Position numbers and translations under genes: made by a program. From an unicellular cyanobacterium SU3 (GTDB lineage Bacteria > Cyanobacteriota > Cyanobacteriia > Cyanobacteriales > Microcystaceae), in assembly GCA_002172675.1 (NCBI GenBank), contig NETF01000043.1:1-64000 (forward strand): a stretch of 64,000 nucleotides of DNA. Direction: 5' to 3'. This document shows, one piece after another, positions 8,047-19,155 of the stretch. Numbering within the stretch: the first letter of the stretch is position 1; each line of letters opens with the position of its first letter. The notes beneath the pieces were generated by a model. That model worked only from the letters and a program-made list of their open reading frames with translations. It was not told the origin of the DNA and ran no database searches.

Positions 8047-9855
8047 TTAAACTCGTTTTCTGCTTAATTTTTTTAACCACAATCCACCTACAACTGCAAC
8101 GGTTAATGATACAAACCCAGTGATAGACTGTAATAATAAAAAGCCACCAACAGCAAACATACTGCCAAACATCACTAAAATGGCTGCGATTACTTTTGAC
8201 ATATCATTGCTTAAGTTTTGTGCTGGTTTTAACCCTGTTTTATCTTGTTGATGTTGCCAACCAATGCCCCCAGGACGAACTTTTGTATAAAAATTCAATA
8301 AGGTTTCTTCATCTTCGGGAGGCGTTAAATACATCACTGTTATCCATACCACTGCCGTCATCACAGAAATACCTAATAATCGCCAACCAAAGTCTGGAAA
8401 AATATTATTAACGTCAGGATTAATCGTGGTAATTAAACCAATCAAAAACCCTGCCACCATTGCTGATAACTCCGCCGCTGCATTAATTCGCCACCAAAAC
8501 CAGCGTAAAATTAACACCAGTCCCGGACCCGTTCCAATGGCAATTACTAACCGAAATACCGTCCTTACATCCGTGGCATAAAAAGCAGCAATTGACCCTA
8601 AAACCGTCACTAAAACTGATGCTAATCTCACTGCATTGGTTAACTCTCGATCTGAAGCTTCAGGACGGAGAAAACGACCATATAAATCATTAGTTAAATA
8701 AGAAGCACCCCAATTAATGGATGTAGAAATGGTACTCATAAAAGCAGCAATTAAAGAAGCCACCACTAACCCTAAAACCACCGAAGGTAAATAAGTTAAC
8801 ATTAGAGTAGGATAAGCCAGTTCAGGATCTTCTAAATTGGGTAATAAAACCATTGCTGCTAATGCTGTAACAATCCATGGCCAAGTTCTAACAACGTAAT
8901 TAAGAATATTAAAAAACCATGTGGCTTTTTCTGCTTCTTTTGTAGCTTCTTCTCCTTCCCCTCTAACCGCTAATAATCTTTGCACAAATTCTCCACCCCC
9001 ATCACTGCGACGAAACGACCACCACTGCACGAAAATATAAGCCGAAAATGTTGTCGCTGTAATGCCAGCAGCATCATTCCAAGTAAAGCTTAAACCTCCA
9101 TTATGAGTAATAGGAATAAACGATAAAACATCAAAATTCGTTATTTCTTGAACATTAGGGATTAATTGGTGCATCCCCCCTACATCATTCACCGCAATAA
9201 TAGCCACTAATGCAGCGCCCAATAATCCTAAGAAAAACTGAAAAAAGTCCGTAACCACCACACCCCAAAGGCCTGAAGCCCCAGTATAAATAAGAACAAA
9301 GACACTTAAAGCGATGACTGTCCAGAGTTTAGTCGCATCTCCAGGATTAAACCCCAAACTTTGCCATAACTGCAGGGCATCTACCACCTTAACCATGGCT
9401 AACATGGCGTAGCCGATACCGATACAATTGATAGGAACCGCAAACAAAAAGGCTTTAGTTCCGCGCAAAATGGCTGCTGTAGTCCCACCGTAACGCAATT
9501 CTGTTAATTCAGCGTCTGTGAGCATTTCTGAGCGTCTCCATAGCCCTGAAAAGACGTAAATCAAAACAATATGGGCAATGCCAAAACTCCACCATTCCCA
9601 GTTTCCGGCAATTCCTCGTGAGGCGACTACACCACAGATATATAAAGGGGTATCGATAGAAAAAGTCGTAGCGGCCATGCTGGTTCCCGCTAACCACCAA
9701 GGAAGATTTCTCCCAGCAATCAATAAATCCAAAGGATTTTGGAAATTTTTTTCTTGAGATTTTTTAGATTTTGTTTCTCTATGGGACAACAATAACCCCA
9801 AGGCCATCGTCGCAAAGAGATATATTAAGACAATAATCCAATCTATAAGCTGCAT
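8047..9855 (-). CDS. sodium:solute symporter (SSS) family transporter
   Basis: The 602-residue product has about fourteen hydrophobic helices and the SSS hallmark near the start: LLIAGRNLPWWLAGTSMAATTFSIDTP split over residues 45-70, including the conserved G-R-x-L-P-W-W. Later segments such as AAFMSTISTSINWGASYL (about residue 360) match the Na2-site helix of the family, with adjacent Ser/Thr residues. It should couple Na+ entry to uptake of a small solute across the cytoplasmic membrane; substrate is unknown. The start is 49 bp from a divergent glycosyltransferase gene, so this short gap must hold both promoters. Confidence 0.85.
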   Translation of the reverse strand: MQLIDWIIVLIYLFATMALGLLLSHRETKSKKSQEKNFQNPLDLLIAGRNLPWWLAGTSMAATTFSIDTPLYICGVVASRGIAGNWEWWSFGIAHIVLIYVFSGLWRRSEMLTDAELTELRYGGTTAAILRGTKAFLFAVPINCIGIGYAMLAMVKVVDALQLWQSLGFNPGDATKLWTVIALSVFVLIYTGASGLWGVVVTDFFQFFLGLLGAALVAIIAVNDVGGMHQLIPNVQEITNFDVLSFIPITHNGGLSFTWNDAAGITATTFSAYIFVQWWSFRRSDGGGEFVQRLLAVRGEGEEATKEAEKATWFFNILNYVVRTWPWIVTALAAMVLLPNLEDPELAYPTLMLTYLPSVVLGLVVASLIAAFMSTISTSINWGASYLTNDLYGRFLRPEASDRELTNAVRLASVLVTVLGSIAAFYATDVRTVFRLVIAIGTGPGLVLILRWFWWRINAAAELSAMVAGFLIGLITTINPDVNNIFPDFGWRLLGISVMTAVVWITVMYLTPPEDEETLLNFYTKVRPGGIGWQHQQDKTGLKPAQNLSNDMSKVIAAILVMFGSMFAVGGFLLLQSITGFVSLTVAVVGGLWLKKLSRKRV

Positions 9856-9904
9856 GGTTTAAATTTAGGTTATTTTATTTAAAGTTTGGTTGTGAGGATT
9901 TTCT

Positions 9905-11713
9905 GTGTTAAAACTTCAGTCGTCTAAACAGTGGATAAATCAGTTATCTCAAGTCAATGATTGGGTGTTATTAAGTGTGTGGATGATTATTGGTGGTATT
10001 CTCCGCTTTACAAATTTGGCCGCTAAACCCCCTTGGACCGATGAATTTGCCACCATGGTGTTTAGTTTAGGAAATGATTTTCGTTCAGTTCCTCTGAATC
10101 AGGTTATTTCATTAGATACCCTTTTGCAACCGCTTCGTGTTAATGGGGACGCACGAATCAGTGATGTTGTTTCTTTGTTGTTACAGGAAGATAATCACCC
10201 TCCTTTGTATTTTGTTTTAGTTCATTTATGGGTTAAGTTATTTCAATCTGTCGGGGAATATGTGGATGTGGGAGTGATGAGATCGCTTCCTGCTTTATTT
10301 GGTATTTTATCCATTCCTGGGGTCTATGTTTTAGGAAAAATTACCTTTCGTTCTCGGTTAGTGGGACAAATTAGTGCAAGTTTAATGGCGGTTTCTCCCT
10401 TTGGTATTTTCCTCGCGCAAGAAGCTCGTCACTATACTTTAGCTATTTTATTTGTTATTGCTTCTTTACTCTGTTTAATTGTTTCTTTGAGACATCTTTA
10501 TGAACAATCGATTATTCCTTTATGGTTGGTATTGACCTGGATTTTGATTAATAGTTTTGGTCTTTCGGTTCATTATTTCTTTGTTTTAACACTCATTGCA
10601 GAAGCTATTACTTTAGCTATTTTAATTTATGCTAAATTCAAACACAATTTTTCACAGTTAAGTAAACGAAATTTAATCCGTGTTTTAGCCGTAATTTTAG
10701 GAACAGTAACCACAGGTTTAGTGTGGATGTTTTTAGTTATTCCTCAAGGCTACGGTAATAATATGATCACTTGGATTCATCCTTTGAGTCATATTCTGTA
10801 TGCCATTAGTCCTCCCTTCCAATTATTAGCGGTTTGGGTTCCCATGTTATCTTTATTACCGGTTGAATCTGATTCTATTACTATTGTCATTCTTTCTGGT
10901 TTACTTTTACTATTATTCTTTATTTGGTTTATTCCTTATAGTATTCGAGGTATCAAAAAGGGATTACAGTTGAATCAGTTTCGTCTCTCCCTATTGATTT
11001 TAATGACATTTATTAGTGGAGTTATTGCCTTATTCCTTATCATTACTTATATTATCGGCGTTGATTTAACTCGTGCAGCCCGTTACAGTTTTACTTATTT
11101 TCCTGCTGTTATCGTTCTCGTGGGAGCAAGTTTAGCTATTTTATGGGATGAAATTAAAAAAGAAGATAAAAAATTGCAAGCAAAAACAACAATTAATCCC
11201 CTAATTTTACTTAGGAAATTATACGATAAATTAAACAGTAATGGCCAATTAGCGTTCTATGCAGTTTGGTTCATGGGATTTGTAGGTGCAGTCACTGTTC
11301 TCATTAATTTAGGGTATCAAAAATATTATCGTCCTGAACAATTAATATCAATCATCAAAGAAAATTCATCTCAACCTGTTCTGATTGCTACTACCCATAA
11401 AAGCTTAGTTCAAGTAGGAGAAATGATGGGAATAGCATTAGAATTAATACAAGAAGAAGTGACATTTCAACCAGCTGATGAAAATGAATTAGATAATATT
11501 TCTTTTTTATTGATTAATCAAACAAAAAATAATGATCCACAATCAACTATCAATCTCAAAGAAACAGTAAAGAAGTTACCTAAACCCCTAGAAGTTTGGG
11601 CAGTCAACTTTAATGCAACAATTGAATTAAATAATTGTGCCGTTGATACAAAAAAATATCCATATATCGATGGCTATGGATTTAAAAGATACATTTGTAA
11701 TGAGTCAACTTAA
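9905..11713 (+). CDS. GT39-like membrane glycosyltransferase
   Basis: The 602-residue product has eleven or more hydrophobic helices. After the first helix comes LAAKPPWTDEFATMVFSLGN (residues about 38-57), then EDNHPPLYFVLVHLW near residue 98. The acidic TDE and the D/N-HPPLY motif are typical of the dolichyl-phosphate-mannose transferase/ArnT-like (GT-C) superfamily. It likely transfers a sugar from a polyprenyl-phosphate donor at the outer face of the membrane. The acceptor is not known. It is followed by a long non-coding stretch, so it is probably transcribed alone. The start codon in the supplied frame is GTG. Confidence 0.75.
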   Translation: MLKLQSSKQWINQLSQVNDWVLLSVWMIIGGILRFTNLAAKPPWTDEFATMVFSLGNDFRSVPLNQVISLDTLLQPLRVNGDARISDVVSLLLQEDNHPPLYFVLVHLWVKLFQSVGEYVDVGVMRSLPALFGILSIPGVYVLGKITFRSRLVGQISASLMAVSPFGIFLAQEARHYTLAILFVIASLLCLIVSLRHLYEQSIIPLWLVLTWILINSFGLSVHYFFVLTLIAEAITLAILIYAKFKHNFSQLSKRNLIRVLAVILGTVTTGLVWMFLVIPQGYGNNMITWIHPLSHILYAISPPFQLLAVWVPMLSLLPVESDSITIVILSGLLLLLFFIWFIPYSIRGIKKGLQLNQFRLSLLILMTFISGVIALFLIITYIIGVDLTRAARYSFTYFPAVIVLVGASLAILWDEIKKEDKKLQAKTTINPLILLRKLYDKLNSNGQLAFYAVWFMGFVGAVTVLINLGYQKYYRPEQLISIIKENSSQPVLIATTHKSLVQVGEMMGIALELIQEEVTFQPADENELDNISFLLINQTKNNDPQSTINLKETVKKLPKPLEVWAVNFNATIELNNCAVDTKKYPYIDGYGFKRYICNEST

Positions 11714-11757
11714 GTGTTGATTCCACAGCTAAATTTTAGGTATAAAATACTTGTTAG

Positions 11758-11940
11758 ACTGACATCTTGCATCAGTACATAAAAACTTAATAAGTAGAGA
11801 AAAGTAATCAATGCGCGAATAAGTTAGCATCAAAATGAAATACTGCGGGTTCCGACCTCCGTAAGACGGCGCGGGGTCGCATCGCTATTGCCTCTTGCCT
11901 TTTAAACTAGCTAGTTTAAGCTAAGCTACAAGATGTGAGT
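11758..11940. repeat. left copy of a 140-bp inverted dispersed repeat, with a 42-bp insertion
   Basis: From about 11758 to 11940 the sequence matches the reverse complement of 16725-16864 with only a handful of mismatches. It includes the perfect palindrome AAACTAGCTAGTTT and the block AAGTAATCAATGCGCGAATA. Relative to the right copy, 42 GC-rich bases at 11845-11886 are extra. No open frame for a transposase is present, so this is a non-autonomous element or a recombination remnant. Confidence 0.9.
11845..11886. repeat. 42-bp GC-rich micro-element inserted in the left inverted repeat
   Basis: The sequence begins GCGGGTTCCGACCTCCG and ends GGGTCGCATCGCT. It is absent from the otherwise near-identical right copy (16725-16864), where ATACT runs straight into ATTGCC. 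It is much richer in GC than its surroundings and has CCG/CGG-containing arms that can fold. It resembles in size and style the small GC-rich elements near 51549, 53797 and 58703. Confidence 0.7.
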
Positions 11941-12505
11941 CTACTTGTTGTATAGTCTTAGTCCTAGGAATTTAAGTCTAACAATATTAATCTTGACGAG
12001 TTTTTTACTTTCTCTTTCTAAGGTATAGTCGCAGTAAAATTTTTTCATGAATTTCTCATCATTTTTATCTAAGTAGTGAAATATAAATAAACAATAATCA
12101 ATTTAAGGAAATTTACGAATAGATTTTTAACAACTTTTACTTTTTTTTGAGAATACTAATGTAGCAGTAATATCCAATAAGTAACCATCTGTATAAGAAT
12201 CGAAATAAACGTTAAAGAATAGATAAAGAAAAAAATGCAAATTATACTTTTTTAAGTAATTAAGCGGAAACCTAGAAGGTTTTTCAAGAAGTTGTAATTT
12301 TGATCACAGTATTTACTGATTCTTTACAGTAGCAAAATTCAATTTTCCGTGCATATACTAATTTACGGATCAAGAATTTTTTGGTCATAATATTACTGTA
12401 AGGTAAATACCAAAAAAAATAATTTTCTGATTTTACAGGTTTTTTACCTTTGCTATTTACTATATACAACCAATACGGTCAATTCATTTAACCTACATTA
12501 GAATC

Positions 12506-13279
12506 ATGCAAACTCTTACAACTTCCCCTGTTGTTCTAAACAAACTCAACCAACCTAATCAACCTAATATCAATAATATCTTATCTTCTCCGATAGAAGT
12601 GCACTTAGTCGACAAAAATGATGTTTTTTATCATAAAGGCAGAATTTTAGCAGAAGATGTTTATCGTCAAGTTTGGAATACTGATAATTTAATTGATGGT
12701 AATGATTATGCAGCTGTAGTGGTTTCTAATAATACCGTTATCGGTAATATGAATCTTCAAACAAGAAACAGTCAAAAACTATTAAAAAGCGAGGTGTTTT
12801 TTCAAACAAAACATTGGGAAAATTATCTTTCTATCGCTCCAGAAAACATTGCTGAACTTTCAGGACTATCCGTTTCTCAAGAGCTTCCTCTTGAATCTAG
12901 ACAATTAATTTTAATGATCCTTATTTTAGGAGCATCTACGATTAGTCACAGCTTAGAAGTAGATGTTTGGGCTACTGTTCAGCGAAAGGCCTTAAATCGG
13001 ATTTTAGCTAAACGTTTTCGTTTATCTTTTATTTCTAATACACAAATTCTTAGACCCAAAAAAGAGGTCCCCAAAGATAAGTATTGGGAGTCTTCAGAAA
13101 TGCCACAAATCCATTACTTAGACCTCAAGAAAGACCAAAATATTAATTCCTTTGGCTTATTTTATGCCTATCTTCATTTACAGGGTATTCACCTAAAATT
13201 CTTACCCCGTTTCCGATCCCTGTCAATGCCTTTTTCTACCTTCTATAATAATTGTTGTCATCAAAGTCAATCTGCTTAA
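12506..13279 (+). CDS. GNAT-fold acyltransferase-like protein (AHL-synthase/FeeM-like)
   Basis: The 257-residue product shows the pattern of acyl-ACP-using GNAT enzymes. Residues 75-110 (DYAAVVVSNNTVIGNMNLQT) form the central strands, AELSGLSVSQELPLESR near residue 117 corresponds to the E-I-x-R-L-x-V block of autoinducer synthases, and DVWATVQRKALNRILAKRF near residue 155 matches the F-x-T-x-x-x-x-x-R-x-L region. Related groups include N-acyl amino acid synthases, thermostable-hemolysin proteins and PEP-CTERM-associated acyltransferases. Substrate and product are unknown. It is 63 bp upstream of an HDO enzyme, with which it probably forms an operon, and two PEP-CTERM genes follow on the other strand. 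Confidence 0.6.
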   Translation: MQTLTTSPVVLNKLNQPNQPNINNILSSPIEVHLVDKNDVFYHKGRILAEDVYRQVWNTDNLIDGNDYAAVVVSNNTVIGNMNLQTRNSQKLLKSEVFFQTKHWENYLSIAPENIAELSGLSVSQELPLESRQLILMILILGASTISHSLEVDVWATVQRKALNRILAKRFRLSFISNTQILRPKKEVPKDKYWESSEMPQIHYLDLKKDQNINSFGLFYAYLHLQGIHLKFLPRFRSLSMPFSTFYNNCCHQSQSA

Positions 13280-13342
13280 TTTGGTGATGAATTTAATCAT
13301 CGATTTGAAAACCTTAATTATTTTTAATGGAGTTTAACGAGT

Positions 13343-14095
13343 ATGTCTACCTTATCTACAGCTATCTCTCCTCAAGCAATTTATGAGTCTGAGGTAAGTC
13401 CAGTCCGTGATGCTTTTACTAAGTGTCCTGCGCTTTTAGAACTTTTTAATTCGGATGCTGATCCCATTTTGCTTGAGCTTTTTCTTATCCACTTTAATGC
13501 TTTGGGTGTTTCCATGACGGAACCTGTTGATCGTTGGATTACCCAAGCAGGGGAAAGATGTAAACAACTAGGTTTTGTAGAAGTTGGAAATGCACTGTGT
13601 TTACACGCAACTCATGAAGCAGGTCATCATGAAATGATGATCACAGATACAAAAACCCTCGTCAAAAATTGGAACGAAAGACACGCTTTTCAGCTAGATG
13701 CAACAGAAATGTTAGCTCAACCCCTTCCTAATGGAGTGCAAAAGTATGTCAAATTGCATGAAGATGTGATCGCTAGTGATACACCCTTTTGTCAATTAGC
13801 CATTGAATTGGAAATTGAACGATTGTCCGTTGATGTGGGTCCTATTTTGATTAAACAGTGTCTTGAAATTTTAGGTTCTGATGTTGTCAAAGGATTGAGC
13901 TTTTTAGAAGAACATATTGCCATTGATGTGTCACACACACACTTTAATCAAAAGCAGATGAACAAGTTTTTAGAACAACATCCTGATATGGTTATGCCTT
14001 TAGCAGATACTGCTAAAAAAGCCCTAGAAGCTTATCAACTATTCCTTAATGATTGTGTTCAATTAGCTAAAGCTAAAATGGCCACTATCAAATAA
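13343..14095 (+). CDS. heme-oxygenase-like diiron oxidase (HDO) superfamily enzyme
   Basis: The 250-residue all-helical product has the spaced metal-ligand pattern of iron-containing HDO/TenA-like enzymes. H88-x2-H91-E92-x2-H95-H96 lies in HATHEAGHHEMM; E155, E157 and E159 in ELEIERLSVD; and H191-x3-D195-x2-H198 in EEHIAIDVSHTHFN. The family includes UndA, BesC and CADD, which oxidise fatty acids or amino acids with a diiron cofactor. The neighbour upstream is an acyltransferase-like GNAT protein, so a plausible route is acylation of a small molecule followed by oxidation of the acyl or amino part. That pathway is inference. The gene has a good Shine-Dalgarno-like GGAG 10 bp upstream of ATG. 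Confidence 0.7.
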   Translation: MSTLSTAISPQAIYESEVSPVRDAFTKCPALLELFNSDADPILLELFLIHFNALGVSMTEPVDRWITQAGERCKQLGFVEVGNALCLHATHEAGHHEMMITDTKTLVKNWNERHAFQLDATEMLAQPLPNGVQKYVKLHEDVIASDTPFCQLAIELEIERLSVDVGPILIKQCLEILGSDVVKGLSFLEEHIAIDVSHTHFNQKQMNKFLEQHPDMVMPLADTAKKALEAYQLFLNDCVQLAKAKMATIK

Positions 14096-14140
14096 ATGCT
14101 CCCCCCAGAGTCTATTTCCCTTACTTTCCTATATCCTTTG

Positions 14141-14170
14141 TGTAGAGACGTTGTTCCCAATGTCTCTACA
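14141..14170. repeat. hairpin with TGTAGAGAC/GTCTCTACA arms
   Basis: TGTAGAGAC and GTCTCTACA are perfect 9-bp inverted arms separated by 12 bases. The motif is a common cyanobacterial intergenic repeat. No T-run follows, so it is a weak terminator candidate for the HDO transcript. Confidence 0.6.
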
Positions 14171-14306
14171 GAAGTATAATAGCAGTTTTCACTTGCAGAG
14201 ATTAAACATTAACATCCAAATACTTCCCTATTATAGCAGTCGAAGTACACTCCCCACCATCACGCTTACTGACATTGTGATGAATTGATATGAAATGCGA
14301 AAAGAC

Positions 14307-14346
14307 TAAAAAACAAGCTTACCGATGACGAGTAAACTTGCTTTTG
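14307..14346 (-). terminator. probable rho-independent terminator of the 14399-15292 PEP-CTERM gene
   Basis: Read on the minus strand, GCAAGTTTAC and GTAAGCTTGT form a stem with G-U pairing around a nine-base loop, followed by a T-rich tract. It lies about 55 bp after the stop codon of the PEP-CTERM gene. Confidence 0.6.
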
Positions 14347-14398
14347 AATTAGTTTATATTTTTATAGGGTCATTGATCCAAAATTGCTAAAAACTTAA

Positions 14399-15292
14399 TT
14401 ATTTAGCATTTTTGTTGCGCTTATTACGAGAAACTAATGCACCTACGCCTACGGCAGCTAAACTAATAACAGCAGAAGGTTCTGGAACACTTACTCGCAT
14501 AACGCTAGCACTGACTTGTTGACGGACAGAGAATTGAATTTCTGCTTCACCACCAGCTAGAAAAGTGTAATCAACACCCCCTGGTAAGGTATTTACGTCA
14601 ATGACAGCATCTATATTAGTATCGACGCCATTTTGATTAACAAGGGCTGCTGCAAAGTCTAATGGTAGTCCAGAAAATACTACCTCATCATCAAGAAAAA
14701 TCTCATAGGTACCAAGAAGGTCAGCAGCAGCAGTTTTCATATCTCCGTTACTGTAGCCTGTAATTTCCGCCTCAACAAACAGGCTAACTATAGCATCGAA
14801 GTCAAGGACATCGCCTGCTTCAACAGTAAAGTTATCACTGAAAATGGTGTAATTAGCGTTACCGTTGGATGAACCATTATCACCCGTCAAGATCGTTTCA
14901 GCATTGGCAAATGCAACTGCAGGGTCGCTAACAGGAGCACAGTCAAGACCTGATGTGACGTTAGTAAAGCCAGCCACAGTGGATGCCATAGCAGTTTCTG
15001 ATACATCCACTGGACATTGCAATGGTCCTTGTGCATAAGCATCGAAGTCTGAAGGGCCACTCTTTCCAGGAAAAGGATTTACAAAAGCACTTCCTTGGAG
15101 GGTTTCAAAAAATAGAGGGACAATATTGGTAGAACCTCCAGCAGTGATTAACTGTAGGCTAACGTCGCTAGCTGTAAGCTGTGCTGTACCGCGTACAGTT
15201 CCTGCTTCAGCTTGTTGAGCTATGCCTAGGGTGGCAGCGGATGTAAGTCCGAGGATTCCTGCACTAATCCGATTAATTGGTAATTTTTTCAT
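14399..15292 (-). CDS. PEP-CTERM sorting domain protein
   Basis: The 297-residue product has an N-terminal signal peptide (basic start, hydrophobic core, cleavage near AEA at residue 31). The C-terminus has VPEPSAVISLAAVGVGALV followed by SRNKRNKNAK. This tripartite end (PEP motif, hydrophobic helix, basic tail) is recognised by exosortase in the PEP-CTERM system. The mature part is acidic, beta-rich and threonine/valine-rich with no catalytic motif seen. It is paralogous to the gene at 15631. It is likely exported and processed at the cell envelope. No exosortase gene is in the window. Confidence 0.85.
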   Translation of the reverse strand: MKKLPINRISAGILGLTSAATLGIAQQAEAGTVRGTAQLTASDVSLQLITAGGSTNIVPLFFETLQGSAFVNPFPGKSGPSDFDAYAQGPLQCPVDVSETAMASTVAGFTNVTSGLDCAPVSDPAVAFANAETILTGDNGSSNGNANYTIFSDNFTVEAGDVLDFDAIVSLFVEAEITGYSNGDMKTAAADLLGTYEIFLDDEVVFSGLPLDFAAALVNQNGVDTNIDAVIDVNTLPGGVDYTFLAGGEAEIQFSVRQQVSASVMRVSVPEPSAVISLAAVGVGALVSRNKRNKNAK

Positions 15293-15630
15293 GGTTGACT
15301 TAAGATAACTAGTTAGTCTATTCAGTTGTAATGGAAGAATTACAAATTTTCAAGGTCTTTTGTTTTTTTCAAGGAATCTTAACATAAAGTTAATCTTATG
15401 CAAGACAAGGATCAAACCTTAGATTAGCTAAGGTTCAAGAACTAAAGTTGAGTTAAAAATGGATATTTTAGATAAAAAATACTGATTAATTAAAGTTTTA
15501 CTATTATTCAATCATATAGTTTTCAAAAGATTTGCTACCTAGTTGATAATGGTTAGGGAAAAGCAAAGATAAACGTGCATCAACAGAATATAACCTAAGA
15601 ATTTAGGGAAATTTGCTAAAAAATAGATTA
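15293..15630. other. 338-bp intergenic region upstream of the first PEP-CTERM gene
   Basis: An AT-rich spacer between two PEP-CTERM paralogues on the same strand. It presumably carries the promoter of the 14399-15292 gene. No open frame or clear hairpin was recognised. Confidence 0.5.
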
Positions 15631-16587
15631 TTAAGCCTTATTTTTGCGCCGATTACGAGAAGCTAATGCACCAATGCCAATAGCAGTTAAACTAATCAGA
15701 GTAGACGGTTCGGGAGTTCCCACAGCATTAGAGCCAATTGGTAAATCTTCCTGAGCGATTTCAGCAAAGTCTCCTAAAGATGTTGTGCTTAAAGTCTCCC
15801 CAAAAATATGTGGGGGTATAAAAAACCTATTTTGTTCAAGGTTAGCACTGACCTCTCGACGGGCAAAGAATCGGATGCTGGCATCCCCAGTGTCTTCAAA
15901 AGTGTAATCAACACCTCCGGGTAAAGCATCAAACGGAATCGGTCCAGTAGCGAATGTTTCTGTCCCATTTTCATTATCAAGAGATATATCTACAAAAAGT
16001 CCGGGCCCCTCAAAAACCACCTCACCATTGAGAAAAACTTCATAGGTGGCAAGAAGACTGCTAGTCAAACTTGCGGTGTTTCCTTCTTCCCAACCCTCAA
16101 TGGTTGCTGTCACCAATGGGTTGAGTGTGCCACTGAAGTCAAGTAACTGTCCGTTTGTAACGGTAAACTCTTCGCTCACCAGTTCCCAGATATTGACGGC
16201 TCCAAACTCGCCGTTTTTACGTATTGTTTCAATGGTAGCAGAGCCGAATAGATTGGCCACGTCGTTGCTACAGTCAATGTCTGATTCTGAGCGAGCCGTC
16301 GTAATCAAAGCAGGTACATTAGCCACACCAGACACTCCACCGGGACAACTATCTGGTCCGTCTGTGTAGCTATCCCTTCTCCAATTGATAGAGGCTGCTC
16401 CTTCTACGGTAGTGTTAATAAGGGGTAAAAGGCTAGTGCCGTCTAGAGTTAGAGTTGCATTTTCGACGGCGATGGTTGATTCGGCAGATACCCTTGCTGC
16501 TTGAGCTTCTTGAGCGACTCCTAACGTAGTGACTGTTAGAAGTCCAACAATTCCTGCTAAAGTTCGGTTTATTGATGTTGTTTTCAT
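15631..16587 (-). CDS. PEP-CTERM sorting domain protein, paralogue of the neighbour
   Basis: The longest frame starts at 16617, but the ATG at 16587 gives a signal peptide that aligns with the neighbour (MKTTSINRTLAGIVGLLTV against MKKLPINRISAGILGLTSA), so 16587 is preferred and the product is 318 residues. Cleavage is predicted after EAQA. The C-terminus is GTPEPSTLISLTAIGIGALA then a basic tail RNRRKNKA, the PEP-CTERM signal. Shared stretches such as Y-E-x-F-L-N/D-D/G-E-V-V-F and L-P-G-G-V-D-Y-T-F show duplication from one ancestor. It has an additional insert before the sorting signal. Envelope or extracellular location is inferred from the signals. Confidence 0.85.
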   Translation of the reverse strand: MKTTSINRTLAGIVGLLTVTTLGVAQEAQAARVSAESTIAVENATLTLDGTSLLPLINTTVEGAASINWRRDSYTDGPDSCPGGVSGVANVPALITTARSESDIDCSNDVANLFGSATIETIRKNGEFGAVNIWELVSEEFTVTNGQLLDFSGTLNPLVTATIEGWEEGNTASLTSSLLATYEVFLNGEVVFEGPGLFVDISLDNENGTETFATGPIPFDALPGGVDYTFEDTGDASIRFFARREVSANLEQNRFFIPPHIFGETLSTTSLGDFAEIAQEDLPIGSNAVGTPEPSTLISLTAIGIGALASRNRRKNKA

Positions 16588-16724
16588 AAATTGGCTTGGA
16601 TAATTAATTAGCTTCACATAGTTATAAGGGAAAAGCTACAGATTTTCAATGCCTTGTATATTTTTTGTTCCACTCTTAAATTAAAGTCAGTATTTAAGGA
16701 ACAAATCGGTCAAAATTGAGTCTA

Positions 16725-16864
16725 ACTCACATCTTGTAGCTTCGCTTAAACTAGCTAGTTTAAAAGGCAAGAGGCAATAGTATTTCATTTTGATGCTAAC
16801 TTATTCGCGCATTGATTACTTTTCTCTACTTGTTAAGTTTTTATGTACTGGTACAAAATGTCAG
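16725..16864. repeat. right copy of the 140-bp inverted dispersed repeat
   Basis: This is the reverse complement of 11758-11940 minus the 42-bp insertion. Together the two copies bracket 4.8 kb holding the GNAT, HDO and two PEP-CTERM genes. The internal palindrome AAACTAGCTAGTTT is conserved in both copies. There is no transposase frame. Confidence 0.9.
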
Positions 16865-17094
16865 TAGAGGAAATTCATGAATGGCGACAGAATCTAGGTT
16901 CAGTGAAGGAAAAGTAAAGAAAAATTACAAAATCAACCCATTATGATCCAATCATGCTCTAGTAATTGGTAAAGATTTATGTAGCATTGCTGCCTAACAG
17001 ATAATATAAATGCTACGCTTATGAAGTATGTTAAGTTAAATGAATTGACTTTACTACTTAATTACATAGTAAGTCGTAAAAGAAAAAAAAATGT

Positions 17095-17135
17095 AAAAAG
17101 CTGAGAAACTGTAAGATAGTGTCTCAGCAATTTTA
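17095..17135 (-). terminator. probable terminator of dxs (may act on both strands)
   Basis: GCTGAGAAACT and AGTGTCTCAGC form a stem of 10 paired bases out of 11 with a seven-base loop. On the minus strand it is followed by a TTTTTACATTTTTTTT-type tract. It lies about 110 bp after the dxs stop codon. Confidence 0.75.
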
Positions 17136-17244
17136 TTGATATTTTTATCCTAATGTGGCTCCTCATCCCTAAGTTGTAGAACGTCAGGGCTATCCAATGA
17201 GTAGAAGGAATTAATATAATTCCCCCTACAAATATCATTTAAGG

Positions 17245-19155
17245 TTAACTCACCGCAGAAGGTTGAGGTGTGTTAAAGAAAAGTTGTCGTATTTGTTCAG
17301 CAATTTGAGGACTACTTAACCCTAAATCAGCCTTTGACTCATCTGGTTTCGCGTGATCCACTAATTTATCCGGAACTCCAAACCGTTTAACTGGGACAAC
17401 CACATCATGGTCGAGTAACGCTTCAGCCACAGCCGAACCGAAACCACCCATTAAACAGCCTTCCTCTAAGGTAACAACTTTACCAATGCGCTGCGCTAAT
17501 GGCACAATTAACTCCGTATCTAATGGCTTAACAAATCGGGCATTAATCACTGTTGCTTCAATGCCATGTTCTTTAAGAATTTCGGCCACTTGTAGCGATT
17601 GATGCACCATGGTTCCGTAACCAACAAGAAGCACATCATCACCGTTGCGGAGAATTTCTCCTTTACCGATGGGTATAGGTTCCCAACCTTCTTCCATCAA
17701 AGGAACCCCCACGCCACTACCGCGAGGATAACGCATCGCAATCGGTCCATCGGTATGATTGATACCTGTTACCACCATACGCTGTAATTCTGCCTCATCT
17801 TTCGGGGCCATGACCGTTAGATTAGGAATACAACGCAAATAAGCGATGTCATAAAGTCCTTGGTGTGTCGGTCCATCTGCCCCCACAATACCGGCCCTAT
17901 CTAAACAGAAGAAAACGGGGAGATTTTGGATGCACACATCATGTAAGACCTGATCATAAGCCCGTTGTAAGAAGGTCGAGTAAATTGCCACCACTGGCCG
18001 CATTCCTTCGCAAGCTAACCCGGCCGATAAAGTAACCGCGTGTTGTTCGGCAATACCAACATCAATATATTGTTTTGGTAATTTAGCTTGTAATTTGTCT
18101 AATCCCGTACCTGTTGCCATAGCTGCAGTAATGCCGATAATCTTAGGATTATTTTGTGCCAAAGTGGTCAAAGTATGGGCGAAGACCTTTGAATAACTGG
18201 GGGGTTTCGGTTTATTGGAAGGAATGCCCTTACCCGTAGCTAAATTAAAGGGACTTTGGGCATGGTAACCTACTTGATCCTTTTCTGCTAATTCATAGCC
18301 TTTTCCTTTAACCGTGGCCACGTGAACAAAAACAGGGCCGACTGCTTTGTGCGCTTGTTTGAAGGTGGTAATTAATTCTTCTAAGTTATGACCATCAATC
18401 GGTCCAAAATATTTGAAGCCTAATTCTTCAATCACCGCCCCAACTTTAGGCATAGCTAGACGTTTCATCCCTTCTTTAACCCTTTCCATTTCAGGAGTTA
18501 AAGACTCTCCAAAGAACGGTAAATGTTTAAATTGTTCTTCGAGGTTATCTGAAAGAAACTGCACGGGTTCACTCAAACGAACTTTGTTGAGATAGCGAGA
18601 AATCGCCCCCACGTTGGGAGAAATGGACATTTCGTTATCGTTTAACACCACCATTAGATTAGTATGGGGCAAATGTCCCCCATGGTTAATAGCTTCTAAT
18701 GCCATACCACCGGTTAACGCCCCATCTCCAATAATAGAGACAACCTTATAATCTTCTCCTTTAGCGTCTCTTGCTAATGCCATCCCTAACCCTGCAGAAA
18801 TGCTGGTAGAGGCGTGTCCAGCACCAAAATGGTCAAATTTGCTTTCACAGCGTTTCAGGTAGCCAGCAATACCGTCTTTTTGCCGTAGGGTATGAAAACG
18901 ATGATAACGACCCGTTAACATTTTATGAGGATAGGCTTGATGGCCTACATCCCAAATGACTTTATCTCGGTCAAGATCAAGGGTTTGATAGAGAGCGATG
19001 GTTAATTCTACCACCCCTAACCCCGGGCCAAGGTGTCCTCCACTCGCAGCAATGGTCTGTAAATGCTTTTCTCGAATTTGACGGGCAATATCTTCTAATT
19101 GTCGAATTGATAAACCATGTAGCTGGTTTGGATGGGTAATATCACTTAAATTCAT
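17245..19155 (-). CDS. dxs: 1-deoxy-D-xylulose-5-phosphate synthase
   Basis: The 636-residue product is full length. It condenses pyruvate with glyceraldehyde 3-phosphate using thiamine diphosphate and Mg2+, the first step of the MEP isoprenoid pathway that feeds carotenoids, phytol and quinones. Seen motifs: [17 protein letters not shown] (about 37-53), the ThDP/Mg motif [20 protein letters not shown] near residue 140, [15 protein letters not shown] near 283, [11 protein letters not shown] near 365 and [15 protein letters not shown] near 415. It is transcribed alone, from an AT-rich 508-bp upstream region. Confidence 0.97.

Follow-up and report, generated by a model that had tools for sequence, protein, structure and literature searches.

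A putative FeeM-like acyltransferase gene beside a heme-oxygenase-like diiron oxidase gene: a candidate two-gene unit for an oxidized acyl amide in a unicellular cyanobacterium

Two adjacent open reading frames (ORFs) in a 64,000-nucleotide stretch of DNA from the unicellular cyanobacterium SU3 (assembly GCA_002172675.1, contig NETF01000043.1, positions 1 to 64,000; hereafter the window) raise the question of whether an acyltransferase and a metal-dependent oxidase might together form a small biosynthetic pathway. The first ORF is assigned, with fair but not full confidence, to a FeeM-like branch of the GNAT-type acyltransferases, and acyltransferase activity is inferred from that assignment. 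The second encodes a heme-oxygenase-like diiron oxidase (HDO), for which a dinuclear metal site and the use of O2 are predicted. We tentatively read the pair, at slightly less than even confidence, as an operon-like unit in which the GNAT would make an N-acyl amino acid or amine and the HDO would oxidize it, a diiron version of modules that combine a synthase with a flavin oxidase. Support for a joint unit comes from adjacency of the genes in two genomes, a full set of predicted HDO ligands, and the recurrence of acyltransferase and oxidase genes as neighbors in relatives. The unit consists of the following parts:

12506-13279, + strand: GNAT-type acyltransferase, FeeM-like branch (fair, not full, confidence); ORF of 257 residues
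13280-13342, + strand: intergenic gap of 63 bp with a GGAG ribosome-binding-like site
13343-14095, + strand: HDO; ORF of 250 residues with a PF14518 match and predicted ligands

Conservation and family assignment of the two proteins

The first-pass annotation had described two same-strand ORFs with 63 bp between them, and this arrangement was borne out by the ORF list and by comparison with Cyanothece sp. BG0011 (locus L012; here and below, loci carry L numbers and genomes G numbers). BG0011 is the closest named relative of the region and the sole relative obtained from the genome-contig search; searches of plasmid and viral contigs gave no relatives of the pair. In the window, the GGAG site precedes the start of the second ORF, and no terminator-like site was found within the 63-bp gap. 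The spacing in BG0011 is 59 bp, and GGAGTTTAA occupies the same position as in the window. The proteins of the two strains are 63% (GNAT) and 71% (HDO) identical. At a synonymous divergence (dS) of ~0.8-1.0, the ratio of nonsynonymous to synonymous change (dN/dS) is 0.24 for the GNAT gene and 0.22 for the HDO gene, indicative of purifying selection; the ORFs are therefore genes under selection and not chance ORFs. The pair diverges faster than its flanks, for which amino acid identity with BG0011 is 97% (dxs), 89% (a membrane protein) and 89% (a sodium symporter). The HDO frame of BG0011 has 234 residues and ends ~16 codons short of that of the window, near a run of T (L012:9500-9600), due to either a real shift or a sequencing error. 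All HDO ligands precede this early end.

The window GNAT matches no Pfam family at E ≤ 1, FeeM (PF21926, N-acyl amino acid synthase) included, and its one match in NCBIfam is at chance level (14.2 bits, cut-off 350). The acyltransferase family TIGR03694 likewise gave no match to the window protein (E ≤ 1) and none in its own genome. Thirteen of the 15 intact family sequences were aligned (alignment A10), leaving out the near-identical rows of G404 and G407. FeeM is matched weakly by seven of these 13 members (best E 8.7e-5), the window protein not being among them, and the only other Pfam match, of one member at E 0.29, is at chance level. Residues invariant in all 13 members include Y53, W57, N81, N83, E96, Q159, R165, D191, Y193 and W194. 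In addition, 12 of the 13 members retain E117, and 12 retain S119; these two residues fall at the position of the E-x-S element of acyl-homoserine-lactone (AHL) synthases. The proposal that this protein is a GNAT of the AHL-synthase/FeeM style is thus weakly supported: seven relatives match FeeM, while the window protein matches no family.

An AlphaFold2 (AF2) model of the GNAT, built from an alignment of the window and BG0011 proteins, has a predicted local distance difference test (pLDDT) score of 43.3 and a strand-helix order like that of GNAT proteins. When this low-confidence model was submitted to Foldseek, 706 matches were returned, none of them at E ≤ 0.001 (best 0.072). The 50 listed of these 706 are, presumably, largely GNAT folds (MprF, N-myristoyltransferases, GCN5 and EsaI), none of them significant. 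An alternative in which the first protein has an unrecognized fold and is not an acyltransferase would account for the lack of a family match of its own and for PDB matches at chance level. We consider it quite improbable, given that FeeM is the only credible Pfam match, made by seven of 13 members, and that both the order of strands and helices in the model and the listed Foldseek matches, non-significant as they are, fit a GNAT.

The window HDO scores 20.1 bits against Haem_oxygenas_2 (PF14518), below the cut-off of 28.9, and all five HDO proteins scanned match this family at E ≤ 1 (best 1.5e-9). Across nine aligned HDO sequences, E92, H95, E157, E159, H191, D195 and H198 are identical, and position 60, a possible seventh ligand, is E or D throughout. 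The family matches and the invariant ligands bear out the earlier assignment of this protein as an HDO. The ligand set proposed with it stands in part: E92, H95, E159, H191, D195 and H198 are retained in 9/9 sequences, as opposed to H91 and E155. Because position 91 is H in three sequences, Q in two and E in four, H91 is no general ligand; position 155 is E in five and D in four.

The predicted metal ligands are E92, H95, E159 (E157 is invariant too), H191, D195 and H198, and in all nine sequences they agree with the E-H-E-H-(D/E)-H metal motif given for HDO enzymes in PMC11363339. The first two ligands of AetD, D76 and H79 (PMC11611611), have a spacing equal to the E-x2-H of the window HDO. 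In profile alignments, E92/H95, E159 and H191/D195/H198 also fall on similar residues of a heme-oxygenase-like protein whose function is unknown, PDB 3dde, with E values of 0.045 (five sequences) and 0.16 (nine sequences) that are not significant. The AF2 model of the HDO, for which the alignment consisted of the window and BG0011 only, is all-helical but of low confidence (pLDDT 37.6).

Acyltransferase and oxidase genes beside relatives of the pair

A tree of the nine strong HDO loci contains two groups. The first comprises the HDOs of the window, BG0011, G424 (L072), G382 (L032) and G484 (L071), which are 46-71% identical to that of the window among the relatives, and in all five loci an acyltransferase gene adjoins the HDO gene. 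Three acyltransferase subfamilies are represented. In the window and BG0011, the neighbor is the FeeM-like GNAT. In G382, a GNAT of the Acetyltransf_1 type (21.3 bits, cut-off 20.7) lies behind an AMP-forming ligase 72 bp from the HDO, and a GNAT 70% identical to it lies 344 bp from the HDO in G484. In G424, the neighbor is a divergently oriented TIGR03694 gene (227.6 bits, cut-off 111.95) at 365 bp. The presence of three acyltransferase subfamilies beside one HDO clade is the strongest sign that the HDO acts on an acylated compound or on its amine. Two of the group-one clusters extend as follows:

L032:5770-11956: cluster of G382, which also encodes a glyoxalase-fold protein and, by eye, DAHP-synthase-like and TyrA-like proteins
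L071:8435-15626: cluster of G484, also with an AMP-forming ligase, an aromatic amino acid lyase (PF00221) and a Trp_halogenase-family flavoprotein

The relatives of the first protein were found with a different set of neighbors. Fifteen intact GNAT loci were compared, 14 from the order and one from G264, with neighborhoods read to at most 6-7 kb from the gene and some contigs ending sooner. An HDO gene adjoins the GNAT gene at two of these loci, and in the stretches read at the other 13, no HDO was seen. A FAD_binding_4-type oxidase is present in the stretch read at four loci, directly before the GNAT gene in G394 and G403, directly after it in G539, and ~4.7 kb away in G563. The oxidase of G394 was tested by family and that of G403 was assigned by eye. 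G539 has two glcD-like oxidases, one of them 35% identical to the oxidase of G394, and that of G563 is 66% identical to the G394 protein. DevBCA-type exporter genes occur at three loci (G394, G403 and G264; tested in part, with DevA of G264 just under its cut-off). An HlyD-like protein was noted by eye near four further GNAT loci, G404-G407; the one tested scored 139.8 bits, below the cut-off. A MenE-like ligase lies beside the GNAT gene in G111 and G123 (by eye). In G394 and G403, a TIGR03694 acyltransferase is encoded upstream of the FAD oxidase, and at L030:6691-12924 and L031:6569-13937 a TIGR03694 acyltransferase gene, a FAD oxidase gene, a gene for a window-type GNAT and the exporter genes DevB-DevC(-DevA) stand in a row. 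These FAD oxidase-GNAT-DevBCA clusters serve as comparison cases for the window pair: the same GNAT family stands beside an oxidase gene, with a FAD_binding_4-type oxidase and exporter genes where the window has an HDO.

The second HDO group (G308, G097, G411 and G461) is 37-38% identical to the window HDO and has a shared cluster. By family tests on G308, this cluster encodes ThiF, a tryptophanase/tyrosine phenol-lyase-like enzyme, WbuX-like, cupin_8 and MAPEG proteins, together with a GST-like protein recognized by eye. All four clusters also encode a protein without a credible family match, whose other copies share 49-59% identity with the one listed first below; a profile comparison of this protein with the window GNAT was negative. 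A PEP-CTERM-like protein was observed in some of these clusters. Descriptions were found for none of the larger HDO clusters (G382/G484, G424, and G308/G097/G411/G461). The extents in group two are:

L033:7477-15847: cluster, with the protein of no known family at L033:13494-14180
L034:9580-16867: cluster, with the protein of no known family at L034:11133-11783
L069:7885-17816: cluster, with the protein of no known family at L069:13836-14510
L070:3937-12627: cluster, with the protein of no known family at L070:5808-6461

The exact pair is rare. In a draw of 386 genomes from the phylum, the GNAT query found six genomes and the HDO query four, with the window's own genome as the only overlap. 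One of the six, G315, was a chance match and was left out of the GNAT counts for its internal stops, an E value of 8.6e-4 and the lack of a match in the profile search. Profile searches of 378 genomes each from the order, taken as one draw, found the GNAT in 16 genomes (14 intact, two with internal stops, G463 and G474) and the HDO in 18, nine of them above 300 bits and nine at ≤31.3 bits. The ten weak HDO matches in the latter nine genomes were left out of the counts. In G520, the GNAT and a weak HDO match lie on separate contigs. When 50 family genomes were searched with the pair's DNA, a match over its length was obtained only in G395 besides the window's own genome (G000); matches in G399, G400 and G401 spanned 26-35 bases and were not counted. 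The seven strong-HDO genomes other than G000 and G395 were absent from the GNAT matches. The proteins of G395 are the same as those of BG0011, as far as these were compared. The check on conservation of the neighbors was consequently split: the exact pair is confined to two of 378 order genomes in one genus, while the two functions recur as neighbors with other parts. GNAT relatives with in-frame stops in the profile match were observed in two genomes of one genus (L080:9411-10148 and L081:10142-10627), one of these copies near transposase-like ORFs.

A putative acylation-oxidation pathway and its alternatives

In the proposed pathway, the GNAT would transfer an acyl chain from acyl-ACP (acyl carrier protein) or acyl-CoA (coenzyme A) to the amino group of an amino acid or a simple amine, and the HDO would use its dinuclear metal site and O2 to oxidize the acylated product. 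The likeliest HDO reaction would be desaturation or oxidative C-C cleavage, for example with loss of CO2 to give an enamide or a shortened amide; decarboxylating and C-C-cleaving enzymes are among the known HDOs (PMC11363339). Besides the acyltransferase role of the first protein, we infer what serves as acyl donor and as amine acceptor, which step comes first, and the reaction and its product.

The overall plan has precedents. TyzA N-acylates tyrosine or phenylalanine, and the flavin oxidase TyzC desaturates the product with O2 (PMC10404671); TrzA and TrzS carry out a like acylation and desaturation with tryptophan from two genes (PMC12856293); and genes for ThiF and a nitroreductase occur in NasY clusters (PMC12479983). 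A synthase combined with an O2-using oxidase is therefore an established plan. The enzymes in the window differ from these cases. In the TyzA-TyzC-TyzB system of Mycobacterium tuberculosis (acyl-tyrazolones) and the NasY clusters (stieleriacines/thalassotalic acids), the oxidase belongs to the flavin nitroreductase family and a ThiF cyclase is present, whereas the window has an HDO as the oxidase and no ThiF among the neighbors read. For TrzA-TrzS (tryptazolones) and OxzAB, named in the same paper (PMC12856293), two genes suffice, an acyltransferase and a tailoring oxidase, as proposed for the window; TrzS, unlike the window oxidase, is a fusion of ThiF and a flavin oxidase and no metal oxidase. 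Neither a ThiF-like cyclase nor a flavin oxidase, the mark of the Tyz, Trz and Oxz oxazolone pathways, was found among the window ORFs from 8047 to 19155. With FeeM and TIGR03694 (exosort_acyl), the window has in common that FeeM is the only credible family of the GNAT's relatives and that PEP-CTERM genes lie near some of the loci, but the window GNAT itself matches neither model. The window HDO shares the E-H-E-H-D-H motif and PF14518 with the family of UndA, BesC, AetD, CADD, SznF and FlcD, but none of the solved HDOs matches its sequence significantly, 3dde being the best (E 0.045).

A metal HDO serving as the oxidase of such synthase-oxidase modules was not found in the literature searched, which subscription papers mostly lie outside. 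The statement in the first-pass annotation that no named pathway has just these two genes holds, within that literature, for the exact enzyme pair; a two-gene pathway of the same logic, trzAS, has been published. Similarly, the minimal acylation-oxidation pathway that it suggested fits the recurrent pairing of acyltransferase and oxidase genes, against which stand the rarity of the exact pair and its putative chemistry. If true, this pathway would extend the N-acyl amino acid pathways by a diiron-oxidase branch, hint at the class of substrate used by an HDO clade, and provide a two-gene test case for a new oxidized lipid in cyanobacteria.

Several results weigh against the acylation-oxidation pathway. 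The GNAT call is built on weak matches and a model with a pLDDT of 43. Profile searches of the PDB with the GNAT gave chance matches only, its comparison with TIGR03694 proteins was weak (hhalign probability 11%), and BLASTP against one TIGR03694 protein was negative. Strong matches to both proteins occur in two of 378 order genomes (G000 and G395), both in one genus. At nine of the 15 GNAT loci, neither an HDO nor a FAD_binding_4-type oxidase was seen in the stretch read, and no acyltransferase was recognized in the four group-two HDO clusters. Finally, the substrate and product are putative, and the type of HDO reaction is a guess because HDOs also perform N-oxygenation and other reactions (PMC11611611).

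The two steps might also run in reverse order, the HDO first acting on a free amino acid, with an unusual amine, a nitrile or an alkenyl amino acid as the product, which the GNAT then caps with an acyl group. AetD and BesC do act on free amino acids (PMC11611611, PMC11363339). In addition, an aromatic amino acid lyase in L071, and DAHP-synthase-like and TyrA-like genes in L032, lie near a ligase, a GNAT and an HDO. We nonetheless regard the reverse order as unlikely. The flavin-oxidase relatives take an acylated amino acid as substrate (PMC10404671, PMC12856293), UndA, another HDO, acts on a fatty acid (PMC11363339), and the GNAT relatives that have a FAD oxidase instead of an HDO are better suited by a shared acylated intermediate.

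Flanking genes, repeats and PEP-CTERM neighbors

Between 8047 and 19155, the ORFs read comprise the genes for the sodium symporter and the membrane protein, the pair, the genes for two PEP-CTERM proteins, and dxs, which was named by eye. No Pfam family matches the membrane protein (9905-11713), which is GT39-like by eye only. Two repeat arms and the two PEP-CTERM genes surround the pair:

11758-11940, + strand: left arm of an inverted repeat, copy of a dispersed family
14399-15292, - strand: PEP-CTERM protein 1 (TIGR02595, 20.1 bits, cut-off 16), at a distance of 304 bp from the HDO and of uncertain relation to the pair
15631-16617, - strand: PEP-CTERM protein 2 (TIGR02595, 20.4 bits, cut-off 16), at a distance of 1.5 kb from the HDO and of uncertain relation to the pair
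16725-16865, - strand: right arm of the inverted repeat, copy of the dispersed family

The pair had been placed in a repeat-bracketed island. The bracketing is real, being formed by these two inverted arms, and the repeat itself is dispersed: its family has at least 44 whole or partial matches in the genome, both arms included (40 of 119 candidates scored). Given this dispersal, we rejected the possibility that a special mobile element is delimited by the inverted repeats. What remains of the island is a block that is bracketed by repeats and looks like cargo in a variable interval. In BG0011, the GNAT-HDO-PEP-CTERM block is oriented oppositely relative to the flanking genes, and the region shows no BLASTN match to the window's repeats and no long inverted pair. 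The change of orientation could have come about by recombination between inverted repeat copies.

The interval between the GT39-like gene and dxs (11714-17244 in the window; L094-L100 in relatives) is variable within the genus. In G399, ~0.64 kb separate the GT39-like gene from dxs and hold a PIN-type toxin-like ORF; G396 and G402 have a longer, mixed cargo of toxin-like and other ORFs before dxs; and G397 has other genes, with no dxs in the stretch read (all by eye). In G400, two PEP-CTERM genes (likewise by eye) lie beside the GT39-like gene, with no GNAT or HDO. The contig or stretch ends too early in G401 and G398 to judge the interval. The pair was not seen beside the GT39-like gene in any of the seven other genus genomes.

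Such variability suits a further alternative, in which the two genes would be cargo without relation to each other, cotranscribed from a variable site and each acting on a substrate of its own. The interval does carry other cargo in related genomes, and of the order's 12 other genomes in which the GNAT is intact, none is listed with a strong HDO match; G264, from outside these 12, was covered by the single HDO query only. This alternative appears rather improbable in view of three observations. Both genes are present (two genomes) or both absent (seven) in all nine genomes of the genus, some of the absences being uncertain because the seven genomes are 79-99% complete; the spacing and the ribosome-binding site are alike at the dS noted above; and every HDO of the window's clade (5/5) adjoins an acyltransferase.

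The PEP-CTERM neighbors bear on another alternative, that the pair serves an exosortase/PEP-CTERM surface system and makes a lipid that belongs to, or is joined to, the extracellular matrix or PEP-CTERM proteins. The two TIGR02595 matches beside the pair are the only ones on the window's 87.6-kb contig, and the genome has 30 proteins over the TIGR02595 cut-off in 5.6 Mb and two exosortase matches. By a home-made motif scan, a PEP-CTERM-like gene lies within 4 kb at six of 15 GNAT loci and five of nine HDO loci, or nine of 22 different loci; from the density in the window's own genome, roughly one in 22 would be expected, a yardstick that derives from one genome and another method. Matches to the GNAT itself (L026, L027) and a weak third match in L079 were left out. 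In addition, N-acyl amino acid synthases have been linked to PEP-CTERM/exosortase (Craig et al. 2011, as cited in the accessible text of PMC4897644 and PMC11072679).

The surface role is nevertheless very improbable. Thirteen of the 22 loci have no PEP-CTERM gene nearby, and TIGR02595 is matched over its cut-off only at the window, L012, L028 and L072, with L033 just under and the remaining loci resting on the motif scan. A term search of the accessible text of a cyanoexosortase paper (PMC12188702) gave no mention of an acyltransferase. The notion that the pair and PEP-CTERM genes always travel together is weakened by G400, in which two PEP-CTERM relatives stand at the same flanking gene without a GNAT or HDO. 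A broader form, in which cyanobacteria would have a family of exosortase-linked acyl-amide lipids oxidized by unrelated enzymes (an HDO here, a FAD oxidase in the sister clusters), with a surface lipid as product and perhaps as the acceptor onto which exosortase would transfer PEP-CTERM proteins, is more speculative still and extremely unlikely. As a separate observation, the PEP-CTERM gene at 14399-15292 evolves fast, with 42% identity and a dN/dS of 0.43 relative to BG0011.

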